Shown in pieces: positions 3,418 to 17,666 of a DNA stretch of 64,000 bases. The stretch covers positions 1-64,000 of the forward strand of contig SKMO01000027.1 in the NCBI GenBank assembly GCA_007121025.1. Reading direction: 5' to 3'. Numbering within the stretch: position 1 is the first letter of the stretch; each line of letters begins with the position of its first letter. Below the pieces are notes generated by a model that saw nothing but the letters and a program-made list of their open reading frames with translations, had not been told where the DNA came from and did no database searches. This stretch comes from Bacillota bacterium. GTDB taxonomy: Bacteria; Bacillota; TC1; UBA5767. A program made the position numbers and the translations under genes.

Positions 3418-5007
3418 ATGACCGTAGCGCAGGGACTTCTGACACTTTATCTTCTGACCGCAGTCGTGCTGGCGGTCTACATGATCAGTTATGCACTCCA
3501 CCGGGGAAAATCACCTCTGGTGGTCTGCTTTGTGCTGCTTTGTCTGTCTGTGACCGTTTATCTGTTTGGTGCGCTGATGGAACTGAACAGTCACTTCCTG
3601 GAACAGATGATGTTCTGGCATCAGGCGCAGTACATGGCACTGCCTTTTTTGCCGACACTCTGGCTGACACTGTGGCTTTTTTTCGCAGGAGTGATCCGGC
3701 AACGGATCCCGGTCTGGACAGGTGGCTTGTTCATCTTTCCACTGGCCACATTTCTGGCTCGTCTGACCAATGCCAGGCATGGGTTGTTTTATCGGGGGGC
3801 TTTTGTTCAGGAAGTCAGTGGTCTGCGCATTCTCAGGTTAGTGCAAGGGCCCTGGTATGTGGTTCACTCTCTGTACTCAATTCTGTGCTTTCTGTTTGCG
3901 GTGGGCATTTATCTGCGCTGGATGAAGAACACTCCACCGCAGCAGCGTTTGGGTTACCGGTTGTTTTTGGTGTCAGCGACACTGCCGTTTGTCGGACTGA
4001 TCCTCATTCTTATGGACGCCGGCGGTCTGGGCATTGATTATGCGGCGCTGGTGCTTCCGGTGTCCATGGGTCTTTTGTTGATGGCTCTTTCCCGGTATGA
4101 TCTTCTGACGGTCCGCTCCCTGGGCCGGGACGCTGTGTTTGAACATCACCGGGATCTGACGCTTGTTTTCGACAATGCCCTCCGGTTGGTGGATTGCAAC
4201 GCGGTGGCCAGACAGTGGTTTCCGGAATTGGCACCGTGTCCCCATAGCAAGCCGGTGCAGGAGCTTCTTTCAGCGGATCATCCCCTGTTGGAAGTGCTCT
4301 CCTGGCAGGCGCCGCAGGACATCGAACTGACGTGGGAAGATCAAGTTGCCTGCTTCAGTGCACGGGTTACAGGAATCAGCGGGCCGGGGAGCCGGCAGGT
4401 TGGGCGTCTGGTGTCTCTGGTGGATGTGACAGACCGGAAACAGCAGGAAGCCGCTCTGCAGGAGAACGAACGAAAACTACGGATCCTTGCATCGACTGAC
4501 GAACTGACGGGTCTGTGCAACCGGAGCCGGTTCATGGAACTGGGCCGTCAGGCGGTGTCCCGGTCTCATAATACAGGTGAGCCCCTCAGCCTTTTGATGA
4601 TCGATGTGGATCACTTCAAGAATGTGAACGACACCTTTGGTCACGGAGGCGGAGACGCGGCGCTTCGCTCCCTGGGTGCGTGGATATCCGCCGGTTTTGG
4701 CCCTGATGCGGTCTGTGGCAGACTGGGTGGTGAAGAATTTGGGGTGCTGGTCCCCGGGTGGGAGCTTTCCGGGGTGCTGGAACAGGCAGAACGATTCCGG
4801 CAGCAGGTGGCCGGTCGGCGGATTGTTTACCATGAACGTGTGATTGGTCTGGAGGTGAGCATCGGTGTGGAAACGGGAAGCTCTGGGATCGAATCCCTGG
4901 AAGCAATGATGCGCCAGGCCGACCGGGCACTCTATAGAGCCAAGAATCAGGGGCGAAACCGGGTGATCCTTTCCGGTGAAACCGGGGCAAGCAAGCAAAT
5001 CGGGTAA
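3418..5007 (+). CDS. 7TM sensor diguanylate cyclase
   Basis: Membrane enzyme that makes c-di-GMP from two GTP. Residues 1-230 form seven hydrophobic segments of the histidine-kinase N-terminal 7TM type. A PAS-like stretch follows (about 240-345), then a GGDEF domain (about 350-520). The active loop is GGEEF at residues 437-441, and LMIDVDHFKNVND supplies the metal and substrate residues, so it should be active. There is no Arg-x-x-Asp inhibitory site in the expected position upstream of GGEEF, so classical product inhibition is probably absent. GGAGG precedes ATG 3418. The gene is flanked by terminators or divergent genes and appears monocistronic. The signal sensed is unknown. Confidence 0.9.
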   Translation: MTVAQGLLTLYLLTAVVLAVYMISYALHRGKSPLVVCFVLLCLSVTVYLFGALMELNSHFLEQMMFWHQAQYMALPFLPTLWLTLWLFFAGVIRQRIPVWTGGLFIFPLATFLARLTNARHGLFYRGAFVQEVSGLRILRLVQGPWYVVHSLYSILCFLFAVGIYLRWMKNTPPQQRLGYRLFLVSATLPFVGLILILMDAGGLGIDYAALVLPVSMGLLLMALSRYDLLTVRSLGRDAVFEHHRDLTLVFDNALRLVDCNAVARQWFPELAPCPHSKPVQELLSADHPLLEVLSWQAPQDIELTWEDQVACFSARVTGISGPGSRQVGRLVSLVDVTDRKQQEAALQENERKLRILASTDELTGLCNRSRFMELGRQAVSRSHNTGEPLSLLMIDVDHFKNVNDTFGHGGGDAALRSLGAWISAGFGPDAVCGRLGGEEFGVLVPGWELSGVLEQAERFRQQVAGRRIVYHERVIGLEVSIGVETGSSGIESLEAMMRQADRALYRAKNQGRNRVILSGETGASKQIG

Positions 5008-5046: not shown

Positions 5047-5130
5047 GGTTTTATCGTGAAAAAAGGAGTTTAAGTCTGCTAAGGTGAAATATATAAGGAC
5101 TGCAAAGTGCATGAGAGTGGAGGTATAGGC

Positions 5131-6768
5131 ATGGTATCCGGACAACGAAAAATTTCAACGGACAAAAGTTCGTATGGCATGGTGTCTACAGCTTCGGGAA
5201 AAGCCACTGAAGCCGGTGTGGCTATTCTGGAGGCGGGTGGGAATGCAGTGGACGCAGCCGTGGCGGCAGCCCTTTGCCTGGGTGTGAGTGAGCCGCAGGC
5301 GTCCGGCATCGGAGGGCAGTCCATGGGGTTGGTTTACCTGCGGGAAGAAGACCGGGTGTTTGCGGTGGACGGGTCTTCCCGGGCGCCGTTTCACATTCAA
5401 CCTACCCGGTTGGGTTCAAGGCCGATGAAACTGGGGTTGAAATCGTCAACCGTTCCGTCGACACCATCCATGCTTGGGGTGCTTCATGAACGGTATGGAC
5501 GCCTTCCTCTGAAAGAGGTTATGTTGCCGGCCATACGGACGGCCCTGGATGGGTTTCGTCTGTCGAGTCTGCAAAGCCGCCTGCTCAAAGATCACGCTGA
5601 TGCGCTCCGGGGTGATTCCCTGATTGAAACGCGGTATTTCCGGGAGGGTCATCCGGCAGAAGCCGGTACAATCATCCGACAGCCGGAGCTGGCAGACACT
5701 TTGGAAACCATGGCCCATTCCGGATGGCAGGCGTTCTACACCGGAGACATTGGCCGGCAAATCACCAGAGACATGCAGTCCCGTGGAGGGCTGATTACGG
5801 AGATGGACCTGGCCCAGATCCCCATGCCCATTGAGCGCGATCCCCTGGGAGGATCCTACCGGGGGCTGCGGGTGTACACTTTCCCCCCGCCGGGTGCAGG
5901 GCGGGTGCTCATCCAGCTTCTGAACATTCTGGAAGAATTTCCACCGGAGCTTCTGAACCCTGAAGAGCCGGCCGGGGCGCTCATTTATGCGCTGGCCTTC
6001 CGGTTTGCACTGAACGACCGGAAAAAAATGCCTGTCCATCCGGATTATTATTCGGAAGCGGCCAACCAGATGATGACCGAAAAGGGGTACGGGCAGGAGC
6101 TGGCCAAACGGATCGAACGGATTGGCACATACGTGATGGGTGAAGGGTTTACGGCGCCGCCAACATCCGGTGAAACCACCCATCTGTCGGTTATGGACCG
6201 GCAAGGAAACGCTGTGGGCATCACCCAGTCCGTGGAGCTGGTGTTTGGAAGCAAAGCCATGGCTGATCAGCTTGGATTTTTCTACAATAACTACATGAGC
6301 GCATTCGAGTACGAGGACATGACACACCCCTATTTCTTGCTCCCTGGCGGAAAACCCTGGAGTTCCGTGGCGCCGACACTGTTGTTTCAGAACGGTGATC
6401 CGCTGCTTCTTCTGGGAAGTCCGGGAAGCGAGCGCATTTCCACATCTCTGGCCCAGGTGATTACCCGGGTGGTGGATCATCACCTGTCGCTGGAGGAAGC
6501 CATCGCAGCCCCGCGGTTTCACGCATCCGGAAACGGTACGTTGTTGATTGAGTTGAAGCGGTTTTCCAGTGATGTTATTGACGTGCTGGAACAGAGCCGC
6601 TTCGTGGTGAAAAAGCGGGGGGCCTACAGTTTTTACCTGGGTTGCGTCCAAGGGGTGCAGGCCCCTGCACCAGGTGAGACGCAGTACATTGGTGTTGCGG
6701 ATCCCCGGCGGGATGGCAGAGCAAAGGGACCGAAAACAATCATGAAAGAGGAGGGTGGAGAGCAGTGA
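5131..6768 (+). CDS. ggt: Gamma-glutamyltransferase / hydrolase
   Basis: N-terminal nucleophile hydrolase that cleaves or transfers gamma-glutamyl groups, for example from glutathione or gamma-glutamyl peptides. The 545-residue precursor has NAVDAAVAA and SGIGGQSMG early, and the autoprocessing site ETTHLSV with the predicted nucleophile Thr349. The GSPGSERI stretch of the small subunit is also present. No signal peptide is visible, unlike the usual secreted enzymes, so it is probably cytoplasmic and may have a biosynthetic or specialised role. ATG 5131 follows GGAGG by 8-9 bases; the 5107 ATG is too far from a ribosome site. Its stop overlaps the GTG start of the ATP-grasp gene (GTGA), so the two are coupled. 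Confidence 0.92.
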   Translation: MVSGQRKISTDKSSYGMVSTASGKATEAGVAILEAGGNAVDAAVAAALCLGVSEPQASGIGGQSMGLVYLREEDRVFAVDGSSRAPFHIQPTRLGSRPMKLGLKSSTVPSTPSMLGVLHERYGRLPLKEVMLPAIRTALDGFRLSSLQSRLLKDHADALRGDSLIETRYFREGHPAEAGTIIRQPELADTLETMAHSGWQAFYTGDIGRQITRDMQSRGGLITEMDLAQIPMPIERDPLGGSYRGLRVYTFPPPGAGRVLIQLLNILEEFPPELLNPEEPAGALIYALAFRFALNDRKKMPVHPDYYSEAANQMMTEKGYGQELAKRIERIGTYVMGEGFTAPPTSGETTHLSVMDRQGNAVGITQSVELVFGSKAMADQLGFFYNNYMSAFEYEDMTHPYFLLPGGKPWSSVAPTLLFQNGDPLLLLGSPGSERISTSLAQVITRVVDHHLSLEEAIAAPRFHASGNGTLLIELKRFSSDVIDVLEQSRFVVKKRGAYSFYLGCVQGVQAPAPGETQYIGVADPRRDGRAKGPKTIMKEEGGEQ

Positions 6769-8909
6769 AAATAGCCATTGTCTACAATCGGGAGAGTCAG
6801 GCTGTGATTAATCTGTTTGGAACACTGAACAGGGAGAAATACGGACTGGATACGATCAAAAGCATCAAGGACGCGTTGGAAGCCGGAGGCCACCAGGTGC
6901 GGACATTTGAAGGAGACAAGAACATCATTTCAAGGCTGGAAAAGTTCATGCCAACGGTGATTTCCGGGGAACGGCCCGGGCTGGTCTTTAATCTGAGTTA
7001 CGGAATTCAGGGAAAGGGACGCTACATGCACATCCCGGGAATCCTGGAGATGCTGGGGATTCCTTACGTTGGATCCAGTCCGGAAAGCCATGCCATTGCC
7101 CTGGACAAGGTCATCACCAAAATGATACTCATTCAGAAAGGGCTTCCCACACCGCTGTTTGCCGTGATGGACAAACCGGATTCGCCCATTGACCGGGAGC
7201 TGAAATACCCGCTGATCGTAAAGCCGAAAAACGAAGCCGTGTCCTTTGGGCTGCGTATTGTTTACAATGAGGAAGAACTGCGGGAAGGCGTGGCGGTGAT
7301 CTATGATTCCTTCCAGTCACCAACGCTGGTGGAAGAATACATTGAAGGCCGGGAGATCAATGTGGGTCTTCTGGGAAACGCAGACACGCTGGAAGCGCTT
7401 CCGCCGGTGGAGCTGGTGTTCGGGGACGGACCACAGATTTACACTTACGAGGACAAGACCAGTGCAAGCGGTCGAACCGTGGGAAAGGTTTGTCCGGCCG
7501 CGCTGACTGAAGAACAGACCAGGACGGTCAAGCAGCTGGCCAAGGACACGTTTAACGCCCTGGGCTGCTATGACAGTGCCCGGGTGGATTTCCGGCTGGA
7601 CAGTCAGGGGCGGTTTTATATTCTGGAAGTCAACTCGATGGCCAGCCTCGGGGCCAATGCATCGTTTGTGTACGCGGCCGAAAAAGCTGGACTTGATTTC
7701 ACCAAACTGATCAATCGGCTGATCGATGTGACGTGTGAACGATACTTTGGCCCCATGGTTTCGGAGAGTTTTCACGAGGGAGCCTCCCAGGAGGCCATCA
7801 ACATTTTTCATACGGTGACCCGGAAGCGGGACCAAATCGAAGAGGATCTTCGCGCCTGGACCAACATGCCCAGCTGGACTGAAGATGCGGTGGGAATATC
7901 CACGGTGGTCCGCAGCCTGGAAGACAGGATGAAAAAACTGGGGATGCAGGAAAACCAGCGATTGTCCAATGGGCGGTCAGCCTGGACGTACGAAACCAGG
8001 GCCGGTCTGGAGGGCGGGATTCTTCTGGCGGTTCCCATTGACATCCCGGGACATCGGGCTGGTTTTCCGATCCCCTTCCGGACGGAGGAAGAATGGTTGT
8101 TTGGTGAGGGGATCGGTTCGAGCCGGGGTGGACTGGTGACCCTGTTGTGGGCGCTGGGCGCCCTGAAGGAAAGCAAAGCCCTGGCGAAAAGGAAAATCGG
8201 CGTGTTCTTTTATGCAGACGAAGGACGGGGGATGCGCTACAGCTCCTCAACGTTTGTGAAGGCCAGCCGGGAAGCGTCTCAGGTTCTGGTTCTGATGCCC
8301 GGATTTGAAGGCGGCAAGGTGGTGGACCAGCGCCGGGGAACCAAAAAGTACAGCGTCGTGGTGGAAGGCGACCCGGTGCGGATCGGAAGCCACAAGCAAA
8401 AGGTGGATGTGCTCAGTTCATTCATCGACCGGGCGGAAAAACTCCGGGGGCTGAGTGTGGAAAAAGACCGGATCACGGTGGCGGTGCAGGATGTCAAATC
8501 GGAACGGTACAGTGTTCTGCTGCCCCATCGGGTGGCGTCCACTGTGTACATTTCATATCTGGACGAGCAAAAGGCCCAGCTCGCAGAGCAGGAGATGAAG
8601 AAGATCTTCCGGACCAATACCCGCGGGATGAAGTGCAGTGTGGAAAAACTGGAGGAACGTCCTGCACTGCGCAAGGTACGGCGTCATCCGATTGTCCGGA
8701 AGCTGGAAAGAATCTGTGGGGATTGGAATCTTCCGTTTGGAACAGAGTCCAGCCTGCTCGCTTCTGCCGCCGGAGAAGTCAGCCAGACACCGGCTCTTTG
8801 TGGATTGGGCCCGGCCTGCCAGGGGATGTACACCCCACATGAAGCCATCCACCGGGGTGAGCTGGTGGAGCGCACATTGCTCCTGGCGGTGTTTTTGTTG
8901 CAGGAATAG
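6765..8909 (+). CDS. ATP-grasp (D-Ala-D-Ala ligase-like) protein fused to a degenerate M20 peptidase-like domain
   Basis: 714 residues. Residues 1-330 resemble D-Ala-D-Ala ligase: PYVGSSPESHAIALDK, YPLIVKPKNE, VEEYIEGREINV and the metal-binding ending LEVNSMASLG. This points to ATP-dependent amide or peptide bond formation. Residues about 370-714 follow the M20 metallopeptidase layout, but most metal ligands look replaced: VPIDIPG where HxD is expected, GSSRGG for DxKGG, ADEGRG for DEExG, and MYTPHEA for AHxPxE. The C-terminal half is therefore probably non-catalytic, perhaps binding a peptide or amino acid. GTG 6765 overlaps the ggt stop by 4 bases. Substrates are unknown; co-translation with ggt suggests gamma-glutamyl chemistry. 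Confidence 0.8.
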   Translation: MKIAIVYNRESQAVINLFGTLNREKYGLDTIKSIKDALEAGGHQVRTFEGDKNIISRLEKFMPTVISGERPGLVFNLSYGIQGKGRYMHIPGILEMLGIPYVGSSPESHAIALDKVITKMILIQKGLPTPLFAVMDKPDSPIDRELKYPLIVKPKNEAVSFGLRIVYNEEELREGVAVIYDSFQSPTLVEEYIEGREINVGLLGNADTLEALPPVELVFGDGPQIYTYEDKTSASGRTVGKVCPAALTEEQTRTVKQLAKDTFNALGCYDSARVDFRLDSQGRFYILEVNSMASLGANASFVYAAEKAGLDFTKLINRLIDVTCERYFGPMVSESFHEGASQEAINIFHTVTRKRDQIEEDLRAWTNMPSWTEDAVGISTVVRSLEDRMKKLGMQENQRLSNGRSAWTYETRAGLEGGILLAVPIDIPGHRAGFPIPFRTEEEWLFGEGIGSSRGGLVTLLWALGALKESKALAKRKIGVFFYADEGRGMRYSSSTFVKASREASQVLVLMPGFEGGKVVDQRRGTKKYSVVVEGDPVRIGSHKQKVDVLSSFIDRAEKLRGLSVEKDRITVAVQDVKSERYSVLLPHRVASTVYISYLDEQKAQLAEQEMKKIFRTNTRGMKCSVEKLEERPALRKVRRHPIVRKLERICGDWNLPFGTESSLLASAAGEVSQTPALCGLGPACQGMYTPHEAIHRGELVERTLLLAVFLLQE

Positions 8910-8917
8910 GTGGAAAG

Positions 8918-8950
8918 AAGACCGGTTCAGCCCTGGACCGGTCTTTTCTT
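8918..8950 (+). terminator. Terminator after the ggt/ATP-grasp operon
   Basis: Nine-base stem 8918-8926 with 8937-8945 followed by a pyrimidine-rich T tract. It separates this operon from the NRPS gene. Confidence 0.75.
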
Positions 8951-9145
8951 CTGGGAAAGAACTGAAAATTGCTGTGAGGGAAGGATTTGCGGGATTTCCG
9001 GTGAATATATATGGTGAGCGTTTGTGAAGAATTGGACAGGTGGGGTGAATCACGGGGTGGTTTGCCTTTTTCTGTAGCGCAACGGGTTTACCGGTCCGGA
9101 TAATCGGTCCGTATTTCCCGGAAGAAGAGAACACAGGACAGGCAG

Positions 9146-12100
9146 GTGAAACGATTGAACGAAAAAATCCAGAAATATCCATTAACGTATCCCCAGAAAA
9201 GCATCTGGTATCTGGAAAAATTGTATCCCGGAACCGGGATCGGTAACATTGCGGGAACACTGAAGGTCAGCCAGCATCTGGACCCCGTACGGATGAATCA
9301 GGCGGTTAATCTTCTGCTGACAAGAAACGAAACCTTTGGGATCCGGTTCAGCGAGGTGGACGGAGAACCGGTGCAGCATTTCACGACCCCGCGGCCTTAC
9401 GTGATGGATGTCTTTGATTTTACCAGGACCGGGCGGGAAGAACTCTATGCCTGGGACCGGAAACAGACCACAGTGCCCTTTTCCCTGACAGGGGGGGAAC
9501 TGTATTATTTTGCGCTGGTTCACATCGATGAAAACACCAGCGGTTTTTTTGTTCGGATTCATCATTGCATTTCTGATGCGTGGTCCCTGGTGCAGATCGG
9601 CAGCGAGGTCATGGCTTACTACACCATGCTGGAGAGGGGACAACCGGTTCCTTTGCAGCCCAATCCATCCTACCGGGAGTACATCGAAAGCGAACAGGTT
9701 TATCTGCAATCCAGCCGCTTTGAGAAAGACCGGGGTTTCTGGGCGGAACAGTTTTCTGAAACACCCGAACTGACCACACTCAAGCCCCGGACCAGTAACC
9801 GGCTTGATCTGAAAGCCCGCAGAAAATCCTTTGTGCTTCCGGAAAAGCTGGTCGGAAAGATCAAGAGCCACTGCGCGGAAAACAGGACGTCGATCTTCTC
9901 GCTGTTTTTTGCCGCCATGTGCATCTATCTGAACAGGGTCCGGGACACCGAAGACATCACCGTTGGGACCCCGGTCTTGAACCGGACGAACGCCCGGGAA
10001 AAACGGACCATCGGTATGTTCATCTCCACGGTTCCCCTGCGGATCCGGATGGACAGTTCCCTGGATTTTGTGGCGTTTTCCCGGTTGGTGGACAAGACCT
10101 GGTTTTCGGTGCTGAAACACCAGAAGTATCCCTATGACTGTCTGGTCCGGGATGTGCGCAACCGGAGCAACGGGGTGGAAAAGCTGTTTGATATCGCCAT
10201 TTCCTACCAGAACGCCAAGATGGAACAGACGGGATCCGGGGTGGCCATGGAAACCCGGTGGCATTTCAATGAATATCAGGTGGAGTCCCTGTATCTGCAC
10301 ATCAATGACCGTGAAGATGAAGGCAAAATTCTGCTGAATTACGATTTTCTGGTCGATCTGTTCTACGACAAGGAGATTGAGTTTCTCCATGATCACATGA
10401 TCCGACTGCTTTGGCATGCGCTGGACAACCCCAAACGACAGCTCAGCCAAGTGCATATGCTGTCCGAAAAGGAGATGGACCGGGTCCTGCGGCAGTTCAA
10501 CAAGACCGGTGCATCCTATCCCAAAGAGGCCACGGTGACATCCCTGTTTGAGCGCCAGGCTGAGATTCATCCGGACCGCCCTGCACTGAAAATGAACGGG
10601 GAAATCATGACCTACCGGCAGCTCAATGCCCGGGCCAACAGGCTGGCCCGGCATCTGCGCGACCGGGGTGTCCGGCCAGAAACCATCGTAGGCCTTTTGA
10701 TGCCCCGCTGCATGGAGATGCTGGTGGCCATTCTGGCGGTGGTAAAAGCCGGTGGCGCGTATCTTCCGATTGATCCGCAGTATCCGGCAGACCGCATCGA
10801 TTATATGCTGAACGACAGTGGGTCAAGGCTTCTTCTGACCGCCGGAAACAAAGCTCCCGGAAGTGGGTACGACGGGGAGTTTCTGGCGGTAGACCAGGGA
10901 GATGTTCTGGCGGCAGACGAGGGGGATGAAAACAATCTTCCTGCGGTTAACGCACCGGAAGATCTCTTGTACGTGATTTACACTTCAGGGTCCACAGGAA
11001 GACCCAAAGGAGCCATGATTGAACACCGCAATGTGGTCCGTCTTCTGTTCAATGACCGCTTTGCGTTTCGCTTCGGGCCGGAGGATGTCTGGACACTGTT
11101 TCACTCGTATTGTTTTGATTTTTCCGTCTGGGAAATGTATGGGGCCTTTCTCAACGGTGGGCTGCTGGTTCTGGTCCCCCGTGAAACAGCACAGGACACA
11201 GGACGCTTTCACAGCCTGCTCAGTCAGGAGGGAGTGACCGTCCTCAACCAGACGCCGGCCGCATTTTACAACCTGGTGCATCTGGACGGGCAGAAAGAAA
11301 AACGGGAGTTGTCCCTTCGTTACGTGATTTTCGGCGGGGAGGCACTGAAACCGTCCCTGTTAAAGCCCTTTTACCGACGGTATCCCCAAACAGAGTTGAT
11401 CAACATGTACGGAATTACGGAAACCACGGTTCATGTGACATATTTGAAACTCAGAGAGCAGGATTTGAAAAATGGGATCAGTAATATTGGAAAGCCCATA
11501 CCGACAACCCGGACCTATGTGGTGGACCGCCATCTGAACCCACTGCCCATCGGGGTTCCAGGGGAGCTCTGTGTCAGCGGTGACGGGGTGGGCAGAGGCT
11601 ATCTGAACAATCCCCAGCTGACGGCTGAGCGATTCATTGATAGTCCGTTTGAGCCCGGGGAGCGGCTGTACCGATCGGGCGATCTGGTCCGGTTTTTCCC
11701 TCAGGGGGATATGGAATATCTTGGCAGAATCGACAATCAGGTGAAGATCCGGGGGCACAGGATTGAACTGGGCGAAATCGAATCCCACCTGCTGGCCTTC
11801 GAGGGGATCCGGGAGGCAGTGGTGGTCACCCGGGACGGCGCTCTGGAAACCAAACAGCTGGCTGCGTACTTCGTCGGGGAACGTCTCATTCCGGAAGATG
11901 CCGTTCGGAGGTTTTTGGAAGAAATGCTTCCGGAGTACATGATTCCGGTTGTGCTGATCCAGCTGGAAGAGATGCCCATTAACGCCAATGGGAAAGTGGA
12001 TCGAAAGCGGTTGCCGGCTGCCGAGGATCTGGCCGCTGCAGTTGAGGATATCCGGGTTCCCGAAACGGAGGCCCAGGAGTCCGTAGCCCGGGTCTGGCGG

Positions 12101-13042
12101 GAAGTTCTTGGCATTGAGACCATCGGCATCCATGACAATTTTTTCCGTCTGGGCGGAGATTCACTGGCGGTGGTGGCCGTGGCCACCCGGCTGGGTACTG
12201 ATGTTACGTTTGCCGATTTGTATGAACACCCAACCATCTGCTCGCTGGCCGGTGCCCTGGCCCAGAAACGGACCGGGCAGAGGGAGGACCGGTTGCTGAT
12301 GAGGCTGACGCCTCACGGAGAGCTCTCCCAGGCGATTATCTGTTTTCCTTATGGCGGGGGAAGCGGAACCATCTACCGGGATCTGGCCGATGCGGTATCC
12401 AGAAAATCTGCAGAGCACAGTGTCTTCAGTGTCAATCTTCCGGGACACGAGCCGGGAGACTGCCGGGAACTCATTTCCCTGGAAGAAGCGGCGGAGCGGC
12501 TGGTGGAGGAGATTCTCCAGCGGGTCCCCGGAAAACTGATTCTTTACGGTCACTGTGTGGGCAATGCGCTGACCCTTGAAACAGCCCGCAGGCTCCTTGA
12601 AGCGGGCCGGGAGGTGGAACAGCTGTTTCTGGGTGCCATCCTGCCCCCCGGGAATGCCCGGGTTCTGGGGCGCAACCACGATCCCTGGAAACTGGTTTCC
12701 GACCGCAACATTCTGCGGTTTTTAGGGCGGATCGGGCTTCCGCGAATCGATGCCGGCAAGGAGGTTCTGGAGGACATGATCCGGTCTTTCCGGCATGATG
12801 TACGCAATTATTATCGTTTTTTCTACGATTACGAAACAAGCAGGGCGGACAAGCTGGCGATCCCAGTGCATTTTGTGGTGGGAGAACATGACCTGATGAC
12901 CCGTCATTATGGCCGCAAGATCAACCGGTGGGAGCGTTATGCTGACAAGGTTCGCCTGCAGATCATTGACGGAGCGACTCATTATTTCATGAAGACCAAT
13001 TCAGAAGATCTGGCCCGCATTATCATCAGCCAGGAAGTCTAG
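9146..13042 (+). CDS. Single-module NRPS: C-A(Thr)-T-TE with cysteine-type thioesterase
   Basis: Nonribosomal peptide synthetase module of 1298 residues. The condensation domain (about 10-440) has HHCISDA at 139-145, keeping both His and the Asp. The adenylation domain (about 460-960) has YTSGSTGRPKG; reading the ten specificity positions gives D-F-W-N-I-G-M-V-H-K, the established threonine code. The carrier domain has LGGDSL with Ser1006 for phosphopantetheine. The thioesterase (about 1030-1298) has GHCVG, so its nucleophile is Cys1137 instead of Ser, with Asp1249 and His1279 completing the triad. No PPTase, MbtH or donor module lies nearby, so the donor must act in trans or be an acyl-CoA or acyl-ACP. 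GTG 9146 is used; TTG 9155 behind AGGTGA is also possible. Confidence 0.9.
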   Translation: MKRLNEKIQKYPLTYPQKSIWYLEKLYPGTGIGNIAGTLKVSQHLDPVRMNQAVNLLLTRNETFGIRFSEVDGEPVQHFTTPRPYVMDVFDFTRTGREELYAWDRKQTTVPFSLTGGELYYFALVHIDENTSGFFVRIHHCISDAWSLVQIGSEVMAYYTMLERGQPVPLQPNPSYREYIESEQVYLQSSRFEKDRGFWAEQFSETPELTTLKPRTSNRLDLKARRKSFVLPEKLVGKIKSHCAENRTSIFSLFFAAMCIYLNRVRDTEDITVGTPVLNRTNAREKRTIGMFISTVPLRIRMDSSLDFVAFSRLVDKTWFSVLKHQKYPYDCLVRDVRNRSNGVEKLFDIAISYQNAKMEQTGSGVAMETRWHFNEYQVESLYLHINDREDEGKILLNYDFLVDLFYDKEIEFLHDHMIRLLWHALDNPKRQLSQVHMLSEKEMDRVLRQFNKTGASYPKEATVTSLFERQAEIHPDRPALKMNGEIMTYRQLNARANRLARHLRDRGVRPETIVGLLMPRCMEMLVAILAVVKAGGAYLPIDPQYPADRIDYMLNDSGSRLLLTAGNKAPGSGYDGEFLAVDQGDVLAADEGDENNLPAVNAPEDLLYVIYTSGSTGRPKGAMIEHRNVVRLLFNDRFAFRFGPEDVWTLFHSYCFDFSVWEMYGAFLNGGLLVLVPRETAQDTGRFHSLLSQEGVTVLNQTPAAFYNLVHLDGQKEKRELSLRYVIFGGEALKPSLLKPFYRRYPQTELINMYGITETTVHVTYLKLREQDLKNGISNIGKPIPTTRTYVVDRHLNPLPIGVPGELCVSGDGVGRGYLNNPQLTAERFIDSPFEPGERLYRSGDLVRFFPQGDMEYLGRIDNQVKIRGHRIELGEIESHLLAFEGIREAVVVTRDGALETKQLAAYFVGERLIPEDAVRRFLEEMLPEYMIPVVLIQLEEMPINANGKVDRKRLPAAEDLAAAVEDIRVPETEAQESVARVWREVLGIETIGIHDNFFRLGGDSLAVVAVATRLGTDVTFADLYEHPTICSLAGALAQKRTGQREDRLLMRLTPHGELSQAIICFPYGGGSGTIYRDLADAVSRKSAEHSVFSVNLPGHEPGDCRELISLEEAAERLVEEILQRVPGKLILYGHCVGNALTLETARRLLEAGREVEQLFLGAILPPGNARVLGRNHDPWKLVSDRNILRFLGRIGLPRIDAGKEVLEDMIRSFRHDVRNYYRFFYDYETSRADKLAIPVHFVVGEHDLMTRHYGRKINRWERYADKVRLQIIDGATHYFMKTNSEDLARIIISQEV

Positions 13043-13076: not shown

Positions 13077-13089
13077 GGAGGTGCCCTCT

Positions 13090-14985
13090 GTGCTGGTTGT
13101 GTTTCGTGACCTTGGGTTTCTGGCGATCAATCTGTCGCTTCTGTTCATCGTGTATATTGCTGTGCTGGTGTTGCGGATGAGACGCAAGAGTCAGATTCAT
13201 TATGCCTTTTTGACCCTGATGGGAACCATTTCCATCTGGGCACTGGGGGCCGTGTTCCTGACCTTTGACTATTTGGCGGGAAGGCCAACCAATCCCCGGA
13301 TGGTTGAACTGGCGTACGTCGGCCTTATTCTGACGCCGGTGGCGGTCCTGTTTCTCGGTGTGGTCTTTGCCAAAACAAAAATTCGGTTGTCCTGGAAACA
13401 CGGCTTGTTTCTGGTGGTACCTCTGATCTCTCTGGTCATGTTGTTTACGAACGATCAGCACCAGTTGTTCTACCGGTACATGCGCTTTGAAGATTTGACC
13501 AGTGCGCAGGCCCTGGGCAGTTATTTTTTGCTGCATACGGTGTACTCATACTTTTGCATCGTCCTGGGGATGTGGCACCTGGCCTATTTCAGTGTGAAGA
13601 ATGCCGGGTTTTTTTCCCGGCAGTCTATTCTGATCCTTCTGGGGATTGTCATCTCAACAGGGTACAATGCCCTGCTGACCTTTCAGGTGATAGAAGGATA
13701 CTTTTATTCAAATGTGATTGCCTTCTTTTTTACGTTTCTGCTGTTCTATTTTGCAATCTTCAAGTACGATTTTCTTAATGTGGTTCCGGTGGCGCTGCAA
13801 AAAGTGGTGGACAACATTTCGGACGGATTTCTTGTGCTGGACAAGGAAGGCTATGTCATTGACTACAACCGGACGTTTGCCAGCATCTTTGAACCGGTCC
13901 TGAAGGTCCGGCGGCGGGAAAACCTGTCTGACATGGCAGAGAGCATCCGTGAACACGGAGAGATCGCCGCTCTGATGGACCTGTTTGCAGCCGGTGTGGA
14001 AAAGGGGGAAGCCAATTCCTTTGAACGGTCGGTGGTGATTGAGGGCAGACAGAAGCATTTTTCGGTCGAAGTGACCCCGATCTTCAACGACCAGGAGGTC
14101 TATCTGAGCACCATCGTATTGCTTAAGGACATCACCCAGGTCAAAGAAGCATTGGAAACCATTCAGCGCAACCATGAAATTCTCACAGAGCAGGAACGCC
14201 TTGCCTCCCTGGGCCAGCTGATCGGGGGGATTGCCCACAATCTGAAAACCCCGATCATGTCGATTTCCGGCGGAATTGAAGCGCTGACAGATCTCGTTGA
14301 TGAGTATGAACGGTCTGTTGGTGACGGGACGGTCACAGACGAAGACCACCGGGAGATAGCGGCAGAAATGCACGAGTGGGTTGGGAAAATCCGGCCGCAC
14401 TGTGCGTACATGTCCGATATCATTTCAACAGTCAAAGGTCAGGCGGCGCAGTTTAATGTGAACAGTCAGATGAGTTTCACCCTTGATGAGCTGATTCGGC
14501 GGGTGGATCTTCTGATGAAACATGAGCTCAAACGTTTTCACTGCGAACTGACCACCCATTTCGAAGCCGATCGATATCTGGAAATACATGGTGAAGTGAA
14601 CAGCCTGGTGCAGATTTTTGACAACCTGATCATCAACGGGATCCATTCGTATGATGGGAAACGGGGTGTCATTGACCTGACTGTTCGCAAAGAGAATGAT
14701 GGAAACGTTCTGTTTGTGTTCCGGGATTACGGGAAGGGCATTCCCGAGGCAATTCAGCCTAAACTGTTTCGTGAAATGGTCACCACAAAGGGCAAACAGG
14801 GAACAGGGCTGGGACTCTACATGTCTCATGCCACGGTCAAAGGGCGTTTCGGAGGTCAAATGTGGTTTGAATCAACAGAGGGAGAAGGGACGGCGTTTTA
14901 CATGACCATACCACTGAAGGGCAGCACAATCCGGTCGATGCCTGAGGGAAGCGGGCTTGCCCCGGAAGAGCCGAATATGCAATAA
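13090..14985 (+). CDS. 7TM-PAS sensor histidine kinase
   Basis: Membrane histidine kinase of 631 residues. Residues 1-225 carry seven hydrophobic segments; a PAS domain follows (about 235-355). The H-box IAHNLKTPIM gives phospho-acceptor His383, and HATPase motifs follow (NLIINGIHS, DYGKGIP, GTGLGLYM). Start GTG 13090 is preferred over GTG 13081 because GGGAGG at 13076-13081 gives good spacing only to 13090. The gene lies 47 bases after the NRPS stop and about 100 bases before a response regulator, which it probably phosphorylates. The signal is unknown. Confidence 0.9.
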   Translation: MLVVFRDLGFLAINLSLLFIVYIAVLVLRMRRKSQIHYAFLTLMGTISIWALGAVFLTFDYLAGRPTNPRMVELAYVGLILTPVAVLFLGVVFAKTKIRLSWKHGLFLVVPLISLVMLFTNDQHQLFYRYMRFEDLTSAQALGSYFLLHTVYSYFCIVLGMWHLAYFSVKNAGFFSRQSILILLGIVISTGYNALLTFQVIEGYFYSNVIAFFFTFLLFYFAIFKYDFLNVVPVALQKVVDNISDGFLVLDKEGYVIDYNRTFASIFEPVLKVRRRENLSDMAESIREHGEIAALMDLFAAGVEKGEANSFERSVVIEGRQKHFSVEVTPIFNDQEVYLSTIVLLKDITQVKEALETIQRNHEILTEQERLASLGQLIGGIAHNLKTPIMSISGGIEALTDLVDEYERSVGDGTVTDEDHREIAAEMHEWVGKIRPHCAYMSDIISTVKGQAAQFNVNSQMSFTLDELIRRVDLLMKHELKRFHCELTTHFEADRYLEIHGEVNSLVQIFDNLIINGIHSYDGKRGVIDLTVRKENDGNVLFVFRDYGKGIPEAIQPKLFREMVTTKGKQGTGLGLYMSHATVKGRFGGQMWFESTEGEGTAFYMTIPLKGSTIRSMPEGSGLAPEEPNMQ

Positions 14986-15091: not shown

Positions 15092-16636
15092 ATGAGAAAA
15101 CGGCGTAAAACAGGGATGACGGGATACAAAATCATCGTGGTGGACGATGAAATCGGGATCATCGAATCGCTGGGTGTGGTCCTGCGGCGAAATGGTTACC
15201 AATTTGCCGGAGAGACCGACCCTTTGCGCGCGATCGAGCGGATCCGCGAAGAACATTTTGATCTGCTGGTGCTTGATTATCTGATGCATCCCCTGCATGG
15301 CGACGAAGTGGTGGAGGAAATCCGTAAATTCAACAAGGAACTGTACATCCTGCTGCTGACGGGGCACCGGGAACTGGCGCCACCCCTGGAAACCATCCGG
15401 GCGCTGGATATTCAGGGATACTGCGAGAAAAGCGATAAGTTTGATCAGCTGATTCTGTTGGTGGAGTCGGGAATCAAGTCAATCTCCATGCTTCAGACCA
15501 TCAAGAAATTTCAGGAAGGGCTGAACAAAATTCTGCAGGCGGTTCCCAAGATTTATCAGCTGCAGCCACTGGGCAGCATTCTTGAGGAAATCCTGACGGA
15601 AATCATGCCGCTGGTGAACAGTGAGCATGCGTTTATTCTGGTGGATGACATCATGGATCTTCGGGCAGAAAGCAACAAGAGTATTTTCAAGGGCATCGGC
15701 AAGTACAAGACGCCCATTGACGATTTCATGGAGATGCTGGACCCTGAGATGATTGAGCAGGTGGGGCATGCCCGAATGACCAAGACGGTGGTCCGTTCGC
15801 AAAACGGGGTGATTCTACCCCTGAACAATGACTATCTGGAGACCATTGGGGTGATCTACGTCGAAAGCGAAGAAAATGGGCCATCGGCGCTGGAAGAGGG
15901 CCTGCAGCTGTTGGAGATCTATGCAAGCCAATCGGCCTCTTCGCTGAGCAATGCGTTTTTGCATTCGCTGGTGAACATGAAAAATGATGAACTCAATAAA
16001 ACGTACGAACAGCTGAAAGTCCGCTATATGGACACCATTGAGGCGCTCCGCCTTGTGGTTGACGCCAAGGACATTTATACCCGGGGCCATTCGGACAGGG
16101 TGTCCTACTACGCAGTGGAAATTGGAAAGGCCATGGAACTTCCGGAAGAGGAACTGGAAACCCTGCGGATCAGTGGGATTTTCCACGATGTGGGAAAAAT
16201 CGGCACTGCAGACGATATTCTGTCCAAATCGGACACGCTGGACCGATACGAGTTTGAAGAAATCAAGAAGCATCCCCTGAAGGGCGCCCATATCCTGTCG
16301 GCTGTCTCCATGTTCAAGGGTGTGGTTCCGATAGTTCAGTGCCACCATGAGCGGATTGATGGAAAGGGATACCCACAGGGACTGTCCGGGGACCAGATCC
16401 CCCTGCTGTCAAAAATAATCTCGGTGGCCGACGCGTTTGATGCCATGACCTCAGACCGGCAGTATCGTAGCCGGCTGGACCTTGAAGGTGCAAAACGGCA
16501 ACTGGAGCTGGGCCGGGACACCCAGTTTGACGGGGAGATTGTTTCGCTGTTTCTCAATCGTTTGGAGGAATACCCCCGCATGCTGGATGAAATGATCCAG
16601 CGGGGGTTCGCGGTGGAGGCCCCCTTACTGGGCTGA
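15092..16636 (+). CDS. Response regulator with HD-GYP c-di-GMP phosphodiesterase domain
   Basis: 514 residues. The receiver domain (about 10-125) has VVDDE and the phospho-acceptor Asp in LVLDYLM. A GAF-like middle region (about 150-300) follows. The HD-GYP domain (about 325-500) has GHSDRV, HDVGKIG and HHERIDGKGYP, with all expected metal and GYP residues, so it should degrade c-di-GMP. The arrangement resembles REC-DUF3369-HD-GYP regulators. It is likely the partner of the preceding 7TM kinase. ATG 15092 follows GGGGGG; ATG 15116 is an alternative. Confidence 0.9.
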   Translation: MRKRRKTGMTGYKIIVVDDEIGIIESLGVVLRRNGYQFAGETDPLRAIERIREEHFDLLVLDYLMHPLHGDEVVEEIRKFNKELYILLLTGHRELAPPLETIRALDIQGYCEKSDKFDQLILLVESGIKSISMLQTIKKFQEGLNKILQAVPKIYQLQPLGSILEEILTEIMPLVNSEHAFILVDDIMDLRAESNKSIFKGIGKYKTPIDDFMEMLDPEMIEQVGHARMTKTVVRSQNGVILPLNNDYLETIGVIYVESEENGPSALEEGLQLLEIYASQSASSLSNAFLHSLVNMKNDELNKTYEQLKVRYMDTIEALRLVVDAKDIYTRGHSDRVSYYAVEIGKAMELPEEELETLRISGIFHDVGKIGTADDILSKSDTLDRYEFEEIKKHPLKGAHILSAVSMFKGVVPIVQCHHERIDGKGYPQGLSGDQIPLLSKIISVADAFDAMTSDRQYRSRLDLEGAKRQLELGRDTQFDGEIVSLFLNRLEEYPRMLDEMIQRGFAVEAPLLG

Positions 16637-16647
16637 AGGAAGCAAGA

Positions 16648-16687
16648 GGGCGTTCAGACATGGATCCATGCCTGAACGCCCCCTTGT
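16648..16687. terminator. Terminator between convergent genes
   Basis: Ten-base stem 16648-16657 with 16672-16681 enclosing a smaller palindrome (CATGGATCCATG), placed between the HD-GYP stop and the leftward gene's stop. Confidence 0.7.
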
Positions 16688-16706: not shown

Positions 16707-17666
16707 TCACCGGTTGTGCAGGCCCTCGACGATTTCCAGACCGGCAGGAGTGCCCCGGCTTTCCAGAATCACACGGTTCTGCCGGTCGGTCAGCCGGAGG
16801 GACACGGTACTGTCCAGTGTTTCACGGATCTGGACAGTCATGGAGCCCTCTACGGGGGCGTCGAGAAGTCCCCCTTCCCTGCGGGACGCCTGGAGGCTTA
16901 GACGGTGAAACGGTGAGTGCAGCGTGACATCCAGTTGGTCGTCCCGGATGTTCAGCCGGTGAACCCGGGTTCCGTTGTAAGTGGCAAACCGGTACTGGTT
17001 GGGTCCGTGCTGCAAAAAGCCAAGGACCCCGGTGAATGCCCCCGGACCCACAGGAACCCGGGCAATGCTTAGCATCAGGCTGGTGTTCTGATGCGGGAAG
17101 TTGTTGCACTGAAGCCAAAGATAGCTCCGGGGAAAGGACGTTCCCCAGTCCTTTTCGAGATACCCGGCATCCTGGTCAAAGGGCAGGTCCTGACGGTCGA
17201 CCCGGACGGTTCCGCTGACCCGGGTGTCCAGATGAATCACCCCGTGGTTGCACTCCATCCGGGGAAACCAGGCAAACGGGCCCATGCTGTTTGGCCAGAA
17301 CAGATTGTTCCGGACCGGAATCTGATCGGTAAAGTCCAGGGCGCCTTCCACATGGCAATTGGTGTCGCGCAGATGGATCTGCAGACCATCCTTTGTGAAC
17401 CGGTTGTTTTCGATTGTCACAGAAAAAGGGCTGTCGCTCGCGCGGAACGCCTCCGGTGGAAACCGGAAAACGTGCGGCAGGCAGGATGCAGATCCGATCA
17501 CCTGAATGAAGCTGTGGGGATCGGTCCCCAGGCTGATGCCCGGAATGAAGGCCAGACTCCGGCCGTCTGCAGTGACGGCCTTGTAGTACCAGCCTTCGAA
17601 ATAACGTTCTTTGCGGCCCTGGCCCTGGTATACGATTGGTTGAAAGCGGTTGAATGGAAAACGCAT
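16707..17666 (-). CDS. Tocopherol cyclase-family protein
   Basis: 319-residue protein of the tocopherol cyclase family, recognised by KERYFEGWYYK at the start, GPFAWFPRMECNHG in the middle and YLEKDWGTSFP later. Plant members cyclise prenylated quinols; bacterial members of Gram-positive anaerobes have no proven reaction, so a lipid or quinone ligand is only inferred. No signal peptide or membrane segment. It is a single leftward gene divergent from the fatty acid kinase, with which it might share a lipid theme. Confidence 0.75.
   Translation of the reverse strand: MRFPFNRFQPIVYQGQGRKERYFEGWYYKAVTADGRSLAFIPGISLGTDPHSFIQVIGSASCLPHVFRFPPEAFRASDSPFSVTIENNRFTKDGLQIHLRDTNCHVEGALDFTDQIPVRNNLFWPNSMGPFAWFPRMECNHGVIHLDTRVSGTVRVDRQDLPFDQDAGYLEKDWGTSFPRSYLWLQCNNFPHQNTSLMLSIARVPVGPGAFTGVLGFLQHGPNQYRFATYNGTRVHRLNIRDDQLDVTLHSPFHRLSLQASRREGGLLDAPVEGSMTVQIRETLDSTVSLRLTDRQNRVILESRGTPAGLEIVEGLHNR

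Follow-up and report, generated by a model that had tools for sequence, protein, structure and literature searches.

We analyzed a window of 64,000 nucleotides (positions 1 to 64,000 of contig SKMO01000027.1, from the Bacillota bacterium assembly GCA_007121025.1) that encodes a nonribosomal peptide synthetase (NRPS) with a threonine-type adenylation (A) domain and a thioesterase (TE) with a cysteine nucleophile. The NRPS gene is followed on the same strand by genes for a histidine kinase with a seven-transmembrane (7TM) sensor and for a response regulator with an HD-GYP domain, that is, a cyclic di-GMP (c-di-GMP) phosphodiesterase (Table 1). The original prediction for this locus, which was made from the sequence alone, described a stand-alone module. 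This is right for the module itself, which consists of a single condensation (C) domain, A domain, peptidyl carrier protein (PCP) domain and TE, but not for the locus: the NRPS opens a three-gene unit, and its dedicated kinase and HD-GYP regulator had been missed.

Table 1. Features in and around the NRPS unit. Positions are those of the window, except in the last row, which lists loci from another genome (G311).
Feature	Position	Strand	Details
Gamma-glutamyltranspeptidase (GGT)	5107-6768	+	upstream of NRPS
D-Ala-D-Ala-ligase-like ATP-grasp + M20 peptidase fusion	6765-8909	+	4 bp overlap with the end of GGT
Terminator-like hairpin	8918..8951	+	AAGACCGGT / ACCGGTCTT, then TTCTTC; loop 10 nt; read directly from the sequence
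NRPS, C-A(Thr)-PCP-TE(Cys)	9146..13042	+	GTG start; 1298 aa; frame open
Condensation domain, N-terminal	9170..10480	+	HHCISDA at 9560-9580; not preceded by a donor module
Adenylation domain, predicted threonine	10547..12013	+	code DFWNIGMVH(K)
Peptidyl carrier domain	12083..12259	+	GGDSL at 12152-12166
ObiF/SulM-type thioesterase	12335..13027	+	GHCVG; Asp in GEHD 12881-12892; His in ATHYF 12974-12988
HisKA_7TM - PAS - histidine kinase	13081..14985	+	634 aa; 38 bp 3' of NRPS; AHNLK phospho-acceptor; DYGKG and GTGLGL ATP-binding boxes
Response regulator, receiver (REC) - DUF3369 - HD-GYP	15092..16636	+	514 aa; Asp62, HD (FHD 364-366), HHE, and GYP 426-428 intact
Hairpin	16648..16681	+	GGGCGTTCAG / CTGAACGCCC; 3' of response regulator; read directly from the sequence
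Large NRPSs of G311	L120:3227-14080 and L121:2-16672		ObiF-type Cys-TE (GHCLG); terminal module DAKDIGIVD; in-frame C-terminal major facilitator superfamily (MFS) transporter

All of the NRPS domains scored above the Pfam cut-offs (Condensation at residues 9-445, AMP-binding at 468-820 with its C-terminal subdomain at 877-950, PP-binding at 980-1038, and Thioesterase at 1064-1294), and the core motifs HHCISDA, YTSGSTGRPKG, and GGDSL are all intact. By alignment, the specificity residues of the A domain are D658, F659, W662, N701, I728, G730, M754, V762, and H763, with the A10 motif (NGKVDRK) after them. This is the threonine code that had been read originally, and the A domain very probably loads threonine. 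The replacement of the usual GxSxG motif by GHCVG was also exactly as described: the nucleophile is Cys1137, encoded by TGT at 12554-12556. Chance does not explain these features: independent clostridial genomes show the same cysteine motif, Thr/Ser module, and order of domains.

The C domain had been described as intact and lacking a donor module. Indeed, it is the sole condensation domain in the 2.23 Mb assembly (87% complete), and the C domain is N-terminal in the complete relatives as well. This C domain is likely to start with a free acyl donor, given that a donor module is lacking and that expression of a comparable Clostridium NRPS cluster (BGC0001686) gave N-octanoyl-Met-Phe-H (PMC8518294). 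Its matches in the PDB were mixed (Txo2 and TycC rank above the 7C1H/7C1K group), and the ranking does not settle its subtype.

The TE almost certainly belongs to the cysteine type of obafluorin and sulfazecin synthesis (ObiF and SulM), as originally proposed. ObiF1 was its best match by sequence and by fold. Among all PDB sequences, ObiF1 ranked first (E = 2.4e-31; next, 3.4e-16) and SulM was within the top five, while a profile built from nine clostridial TEs scored ObiF1 (3e-45) above SulM (3e-24) and then type II TEs. An AlphaFold2 model of the TE (predicted local distance difference test, pLDDT, 92.5) was most similar in Foldseek to ObiF1 (E = 1.7e-21, template modelling score, TM, 0.88), followed by SulM chains (4e-19), with RifR (7e-15) and other type II TEs weaker by several orders of magnitude. 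The original prediction had suggested comparing the TE with ObiF, SulM, and ordinary TEs in a tree; in our maximum-likelihood tree, ObiF1 and SulM fall in a single group with the cysteine TEs (Cys-TEs; node support 80/88), and the serine type II and EntF-like type I TEs are separate.

The catalytic residues agree with this placement. ObiF1 has the triad C1146, H1284, and D1254 on a late strand; G1173 replaces the usual aspartate and H1145 precedes the cysteine (PMC6668435). We found this pattern, residue by residue, in the TE of the window and at eight other loci: the alignment columns have aspartate at position II and glycine or alanine at position I (the usual aspartate position), and all three triad residues are invariant across the nine loci. 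SulM also has the cysteine and the position-II aspartate. In contrast, the Gln-Cys-Asn motif of the SulM TE, which closes a beta-lactam on an N-sulfonated amine (PMC11298585), was not found in our TE, which has His-Cys-Val instead. Because the ObiF1 triad is reproduced and Gln-Cys-Asn is absent, the TE is ObiF-like, and not SulM-like, in its details. Within this known kind of Cys-TE, it represents a new branch from Clostridia. As in ObiF1, the TE follows a PCP that would carry a beta-hydroxy amino acid. Obafluorin synthesis differs in using a nitrophenyl beta-hydroxy amino acid made via a transaldolase, a dihydroxybenzoate (DHB) starter, and MbtH-like and aryl-A domains; our NRPS is predicted to use plain threonine, lacks the MbtH-like and aryl-A domains, and has a sensor operon.

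A scan of genome contigs with the TE alone gave no match, so we used C-domain alignment in its place and gathered 80 loci; this sample of relatives is thus selected by the C domain. Nine complete NRPSs have a Cys-TE (the window, L024, L030, L033, L036, L046, L048, L055, and L105), and in all nine the module before it is for threonine (DFWN) or serine (DVWHFSL), both residues with a beta nucleophile. A Thr/Ser terminal module is present in just 7 of the 56 relatives with a reductase, AAR-like, or EntF-like end (Fisher P = 3.6e-7, uncorrected for the relatedness of the loci). A beta-hydroxy residue is what ring closure needs, so this association supports the formation of an N-acyl-threonine beta-lactone. 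Wider searches for Cys-TEs at the class and order levels added one genome only (G414).

Two other kinds of release domain in this lineage deserve mention. The EntF-like type I TEs of L037, L056, and L057 also have a cysteine (GWCIG, GGCIG), so cysteine nucleophiles are not confined to one TE clade but are found in another, unrelated one. Also, three NRPSs end in a domain without a Pfam match (L022:5805-10139 on the minus strand, L023:8637-12977, and L047:9959-14287). A further copy (L032, on the same contig as L023) matches the structures 9e4s/9e4x, "amino acid adenylation domain protein" (E = 4e-80), and has a weak match to PigE from NCBIfam. From these matches, the AAR-like domain of L022, L023, L032, and L047 is likely an aldehyde-forming reductase.

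The original prediction had suggested looking for conserved neighbors in relatives, and these exist. The kinase gene lies directly 3' of the NRPS in 55 of the 65 complete relatives (54 identified by script, plus L033, which has an overlapping frame and was added by hand), and the order NRPS, kinase, regulator recurs in loci across clostridial relatives. Two further tests did not depend on sampling by the C domain. Across 399 genomes of the phylum, full-length matches to the kinase (above 600 bits) were found in G000, G001, G002, G031, G112, G153, G293, G367, and G377, and all nine adjoin a C-domain match, with abutting coordinates. Similarly, in a set of 41 genomes made up of 40 relatives and the one that contains the window, the full regulator scored 680-1124 bits in the five that carry the NRPS versus at most 188 bits, to the HD-GYP part only, in the other 36; four of these five are from one family and G031 is from another, so they are not independent events. 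In the regulator, both the phosphorylation residues and the catalytic residues of the HD-GYP domain are conserved. Thus, the NRPS, the 7TM-PAS kinase, and the REC-DUF3369-HD-GYP regulator form a conserved three-gene unit. In addition, two culturable relatives, Clostridium lacusfryxellense DSM 14205 (L055:8300-13861) and Acetivibrio alkalicellulosi (L056:8315-13972), have a PilZ domain, which is associated with c-di-GMP, fused N-terminal to the C domain of the NRPS. This second link to c-di-GMP suggests that the peptide synthetase is under its direct control.

We also found that the sensor domain varies with the predicted product. Its divergence tracks product class (release type, terminal residue, and number of modules) beyond the distances of the C domain, the kinase core, and HD-GYP (permutation P = 0.0005). 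For instance, the window's sensor shares 51% identity with the L033 sensor (threonine, Cys-TE) versus 39% with the L023 sensor (AAR-like end), and the corresponding C-domain identities are 53% and 56%. The model of the 7TM sensor (13081-13806) has a pLDDT of 87.8; most of its top 50 Foldseek matches were G-protein-coupled receptor structures, with none at E ≤ 0.001 (best 5.8e-3, TM about 0.5), and this likeness may merely reflect the seven helices. We also considered whether an upstream HisKA_7TM-GGDEF protein (3418-5007) might read this signal too, which is not supported: its 7TM region is just 30% identical across 73 aa and gave poor scores with the sensors of the unit.

In the Rpf system of diffusible signal factor (DSF) signaling, the signal synthase RpfF is encoded beside the membrane histidine kinase RpfC and the REC-HD-GYP c-di-GMP phosphodiesterase RpfG. 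Our unit has the same kind of output, a REC-HD-GYP regulator with its catalytic HD and GYP residues, but an NRPS stands in place of the enoyl-CoA hydratase RpfF, the kinase is of the HisKA_7TM-PAS type and not RpfC, and the regulator contains DUF3369. By this analogy, the unit would work like Rpf without being a member of it. The synthetases of the clostridial N-acyl dipeptide aldehydes (BGC0001686 and ruminopeptin) are similar in their acyl start and electrophilic release end, and many of our reductase-ended relatives resemble them in layout, but they release an aldehyde by a reductase where our NRPS has a Cys-TE.

From the anatomy of the NRPS, the type of the TE, and the conservation of the operon, which our analysis shows, we infer the following mechanism. 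The C domain would take an acyl group from a free acyl-CoA or acyl-ACP and couple it to threonine that has been loaded onto the PCP, and the N-acyl-threonine would pass to Cys1137. The threonine hydroxyl would then attack in a 4-exo closure, releasing N-acyl-threonine beta-lactone. The adjacent 7TM kinase would sense this product and phosphorylate the HD-GYP regulator, which would alter the breakdown of c-di-GMP. That the kinase senses the product seems reasonably likely; given the residues of the TE and of the terminal module, we modestly favor a beta-lactone over an acid or another ester; and we lean slightly towards the view that the whole unit is an autoinducer circuit acting on c-di-GMP, with the NRPS as the signal synthase, analogous to RpfF/RpfC/RpfG.

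Several observations weigh against this interpretation. In G311, the module before each of two related Cys-TEs is Glu-like (DAKDIGIVD), so Cys-TEs of this type are not limited to beta-hydroxy residues and the cysteine by itself does not prove beta-lactone chemistry. The originally proposed route from threonine and a Cys-TE to a beta-lactone is therefore strengthened by the association with Thr/Ser ends and weakened by this genome. Also, five members of the same lineage with serine (four) or threonine (one) modules and a kinase alongside (L039, L042-L044, and L054) end in a reductase, so the class of compound that is sensed is not necessarily a lactone. The node that unites ObiF and SulM with the clostridial TEs has support of only 80/88, and SulM is a long branch. 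The permutation test for the sensor treats the loci as exchangeable. Finally, the kinase could respond to a different stimulus and do no more than control a behavior linked to the NRPS.

The alternatives differ in how much of this they can explain. Instead of forming a beta-lactone, N-acyl-threonine might leave the Cys-TE as the free acid or as an ester or larger macrolactone, and the signal would then be an N-acyl amino acid. Sequence alone does not give the chemistry of a TE with certainty, the Cys-TEs of G311 come after a Glu-like module, and the released end varies within the family (reductase, AAR-like, or TE). Nevertheless, we consider it unlikely: the triad geometry and the Gly/Ala at position I are those of ObiF1 and SulM, the NRPS-fused TEs reported to have such a triad; changing the cysteine of ObiF to serine is reported to shift the enzyme to hydrolysis (PMC6668435); and the Cys-TE is tied to threonine or serine. 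A still less probable, indeed very improbable, view of the TE is that it resembles type II TEs in function, being inactive or serving in proofreading. ObiF and SulM TEs are nearest to type II TEs by sequence (PMC11298585), but type II TEs are stand-alone serine enzymes, whereas this one is fused to its module, uses a cysteine in a triad that is invariant at nine loci, and lies apart from the serine type II clade.

The product might instead be an antibiotic or a protease inhibitor, which the kinase and HD-GYP pair would sense only for self-regulation or immunity. Both beta-lactones and peptide aldehydes are reactive compounds; protease inhibition is known for the N-acyl dipeptide aldehydes of Clostridia (PMC8518294) and antibacterial activity for obafluorin (PMC10619133). 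This explanation seems rather unlikely in that Pfam scans found neither transporters nor resistance genes among the immediate neighbors, and none belongs to the conserved unit; the partner that is always present is a c-di-GMP phosphodiesterase and not a resistance effector; and the PilZ fusions link synthesis to c-di-GMP. Lastly, the GGT and ATP-grasp-M20 genes (5107-8909), which are directly upstream on the same strand, might supply or process the donor within a small biosynthetic cluster. We consider this improbable: the terminator-like hairpin divides them from the NRPS unit, and the ATP-grasp-M20 fusion had no match in the NRPS-unit carriers G001-G003 and G031 and no homolog detected at the other loci with the unit. 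On this evidence we rejected these genes as part of the system.

The upstream hairpin was not listed by our consensus scan because of its 10-nt loop. The hairpin 3' of the regulator is possibly the end of the unit. A promoter scan gave no excess over shuffled sequences. Just beyond the unit, on the minus strand (16707-17666), is a protein of the tocopherol cyclase family (PF14249), in a genome that looks like that of an anaerobic clostridial bacterium.

We searched for previous reports of the NRPS/histidine kinase/HD-GYP unit, of mining for Cys-TEs in Clostridia, and of a solved AAR-like domain, and found nothing relevant in the open-access literature (most subscription journals were outside the search). 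The conservation of an NRPS with a sensor and a c-di-GMP-degrading regulator suggests a previously undescribed chemical signaling circuit in anaerobic Clostridia. More tentatively, and with somewhat less than even confidence, we propose that a family of small-NRPS autoinducer circuits is widespread in Clostridia, each with a dedicated 7TM kinase, HD-GYP output to c-di-GMP, and an electrophilic signal in the form of an N-acyl amino acid or dipeptide, and some with feedback via PilZ. Members with a Cys-TE would make beta-lactone signals and members with a reductase would make aldehydes; the window would encode the N-acyl-threonine beta-lactone version. Very few pathways are known in which an NRPS makes an N-acyl beta-lactone; a clostridial lineage with plain threonine or serine modules would be a simple source of such compounds. 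Many clostridial NRPSs, including reductase-ended ones from the gut, have their own sensor kinase and a phosphodiesterase for c-di-GMP encoded next to them. If our proposal is correct, compounds that have been discussed as protease inhibitors would be recast as candidate signals, and c-di-GMP in Clostridia would gain a defined small-molecule input.

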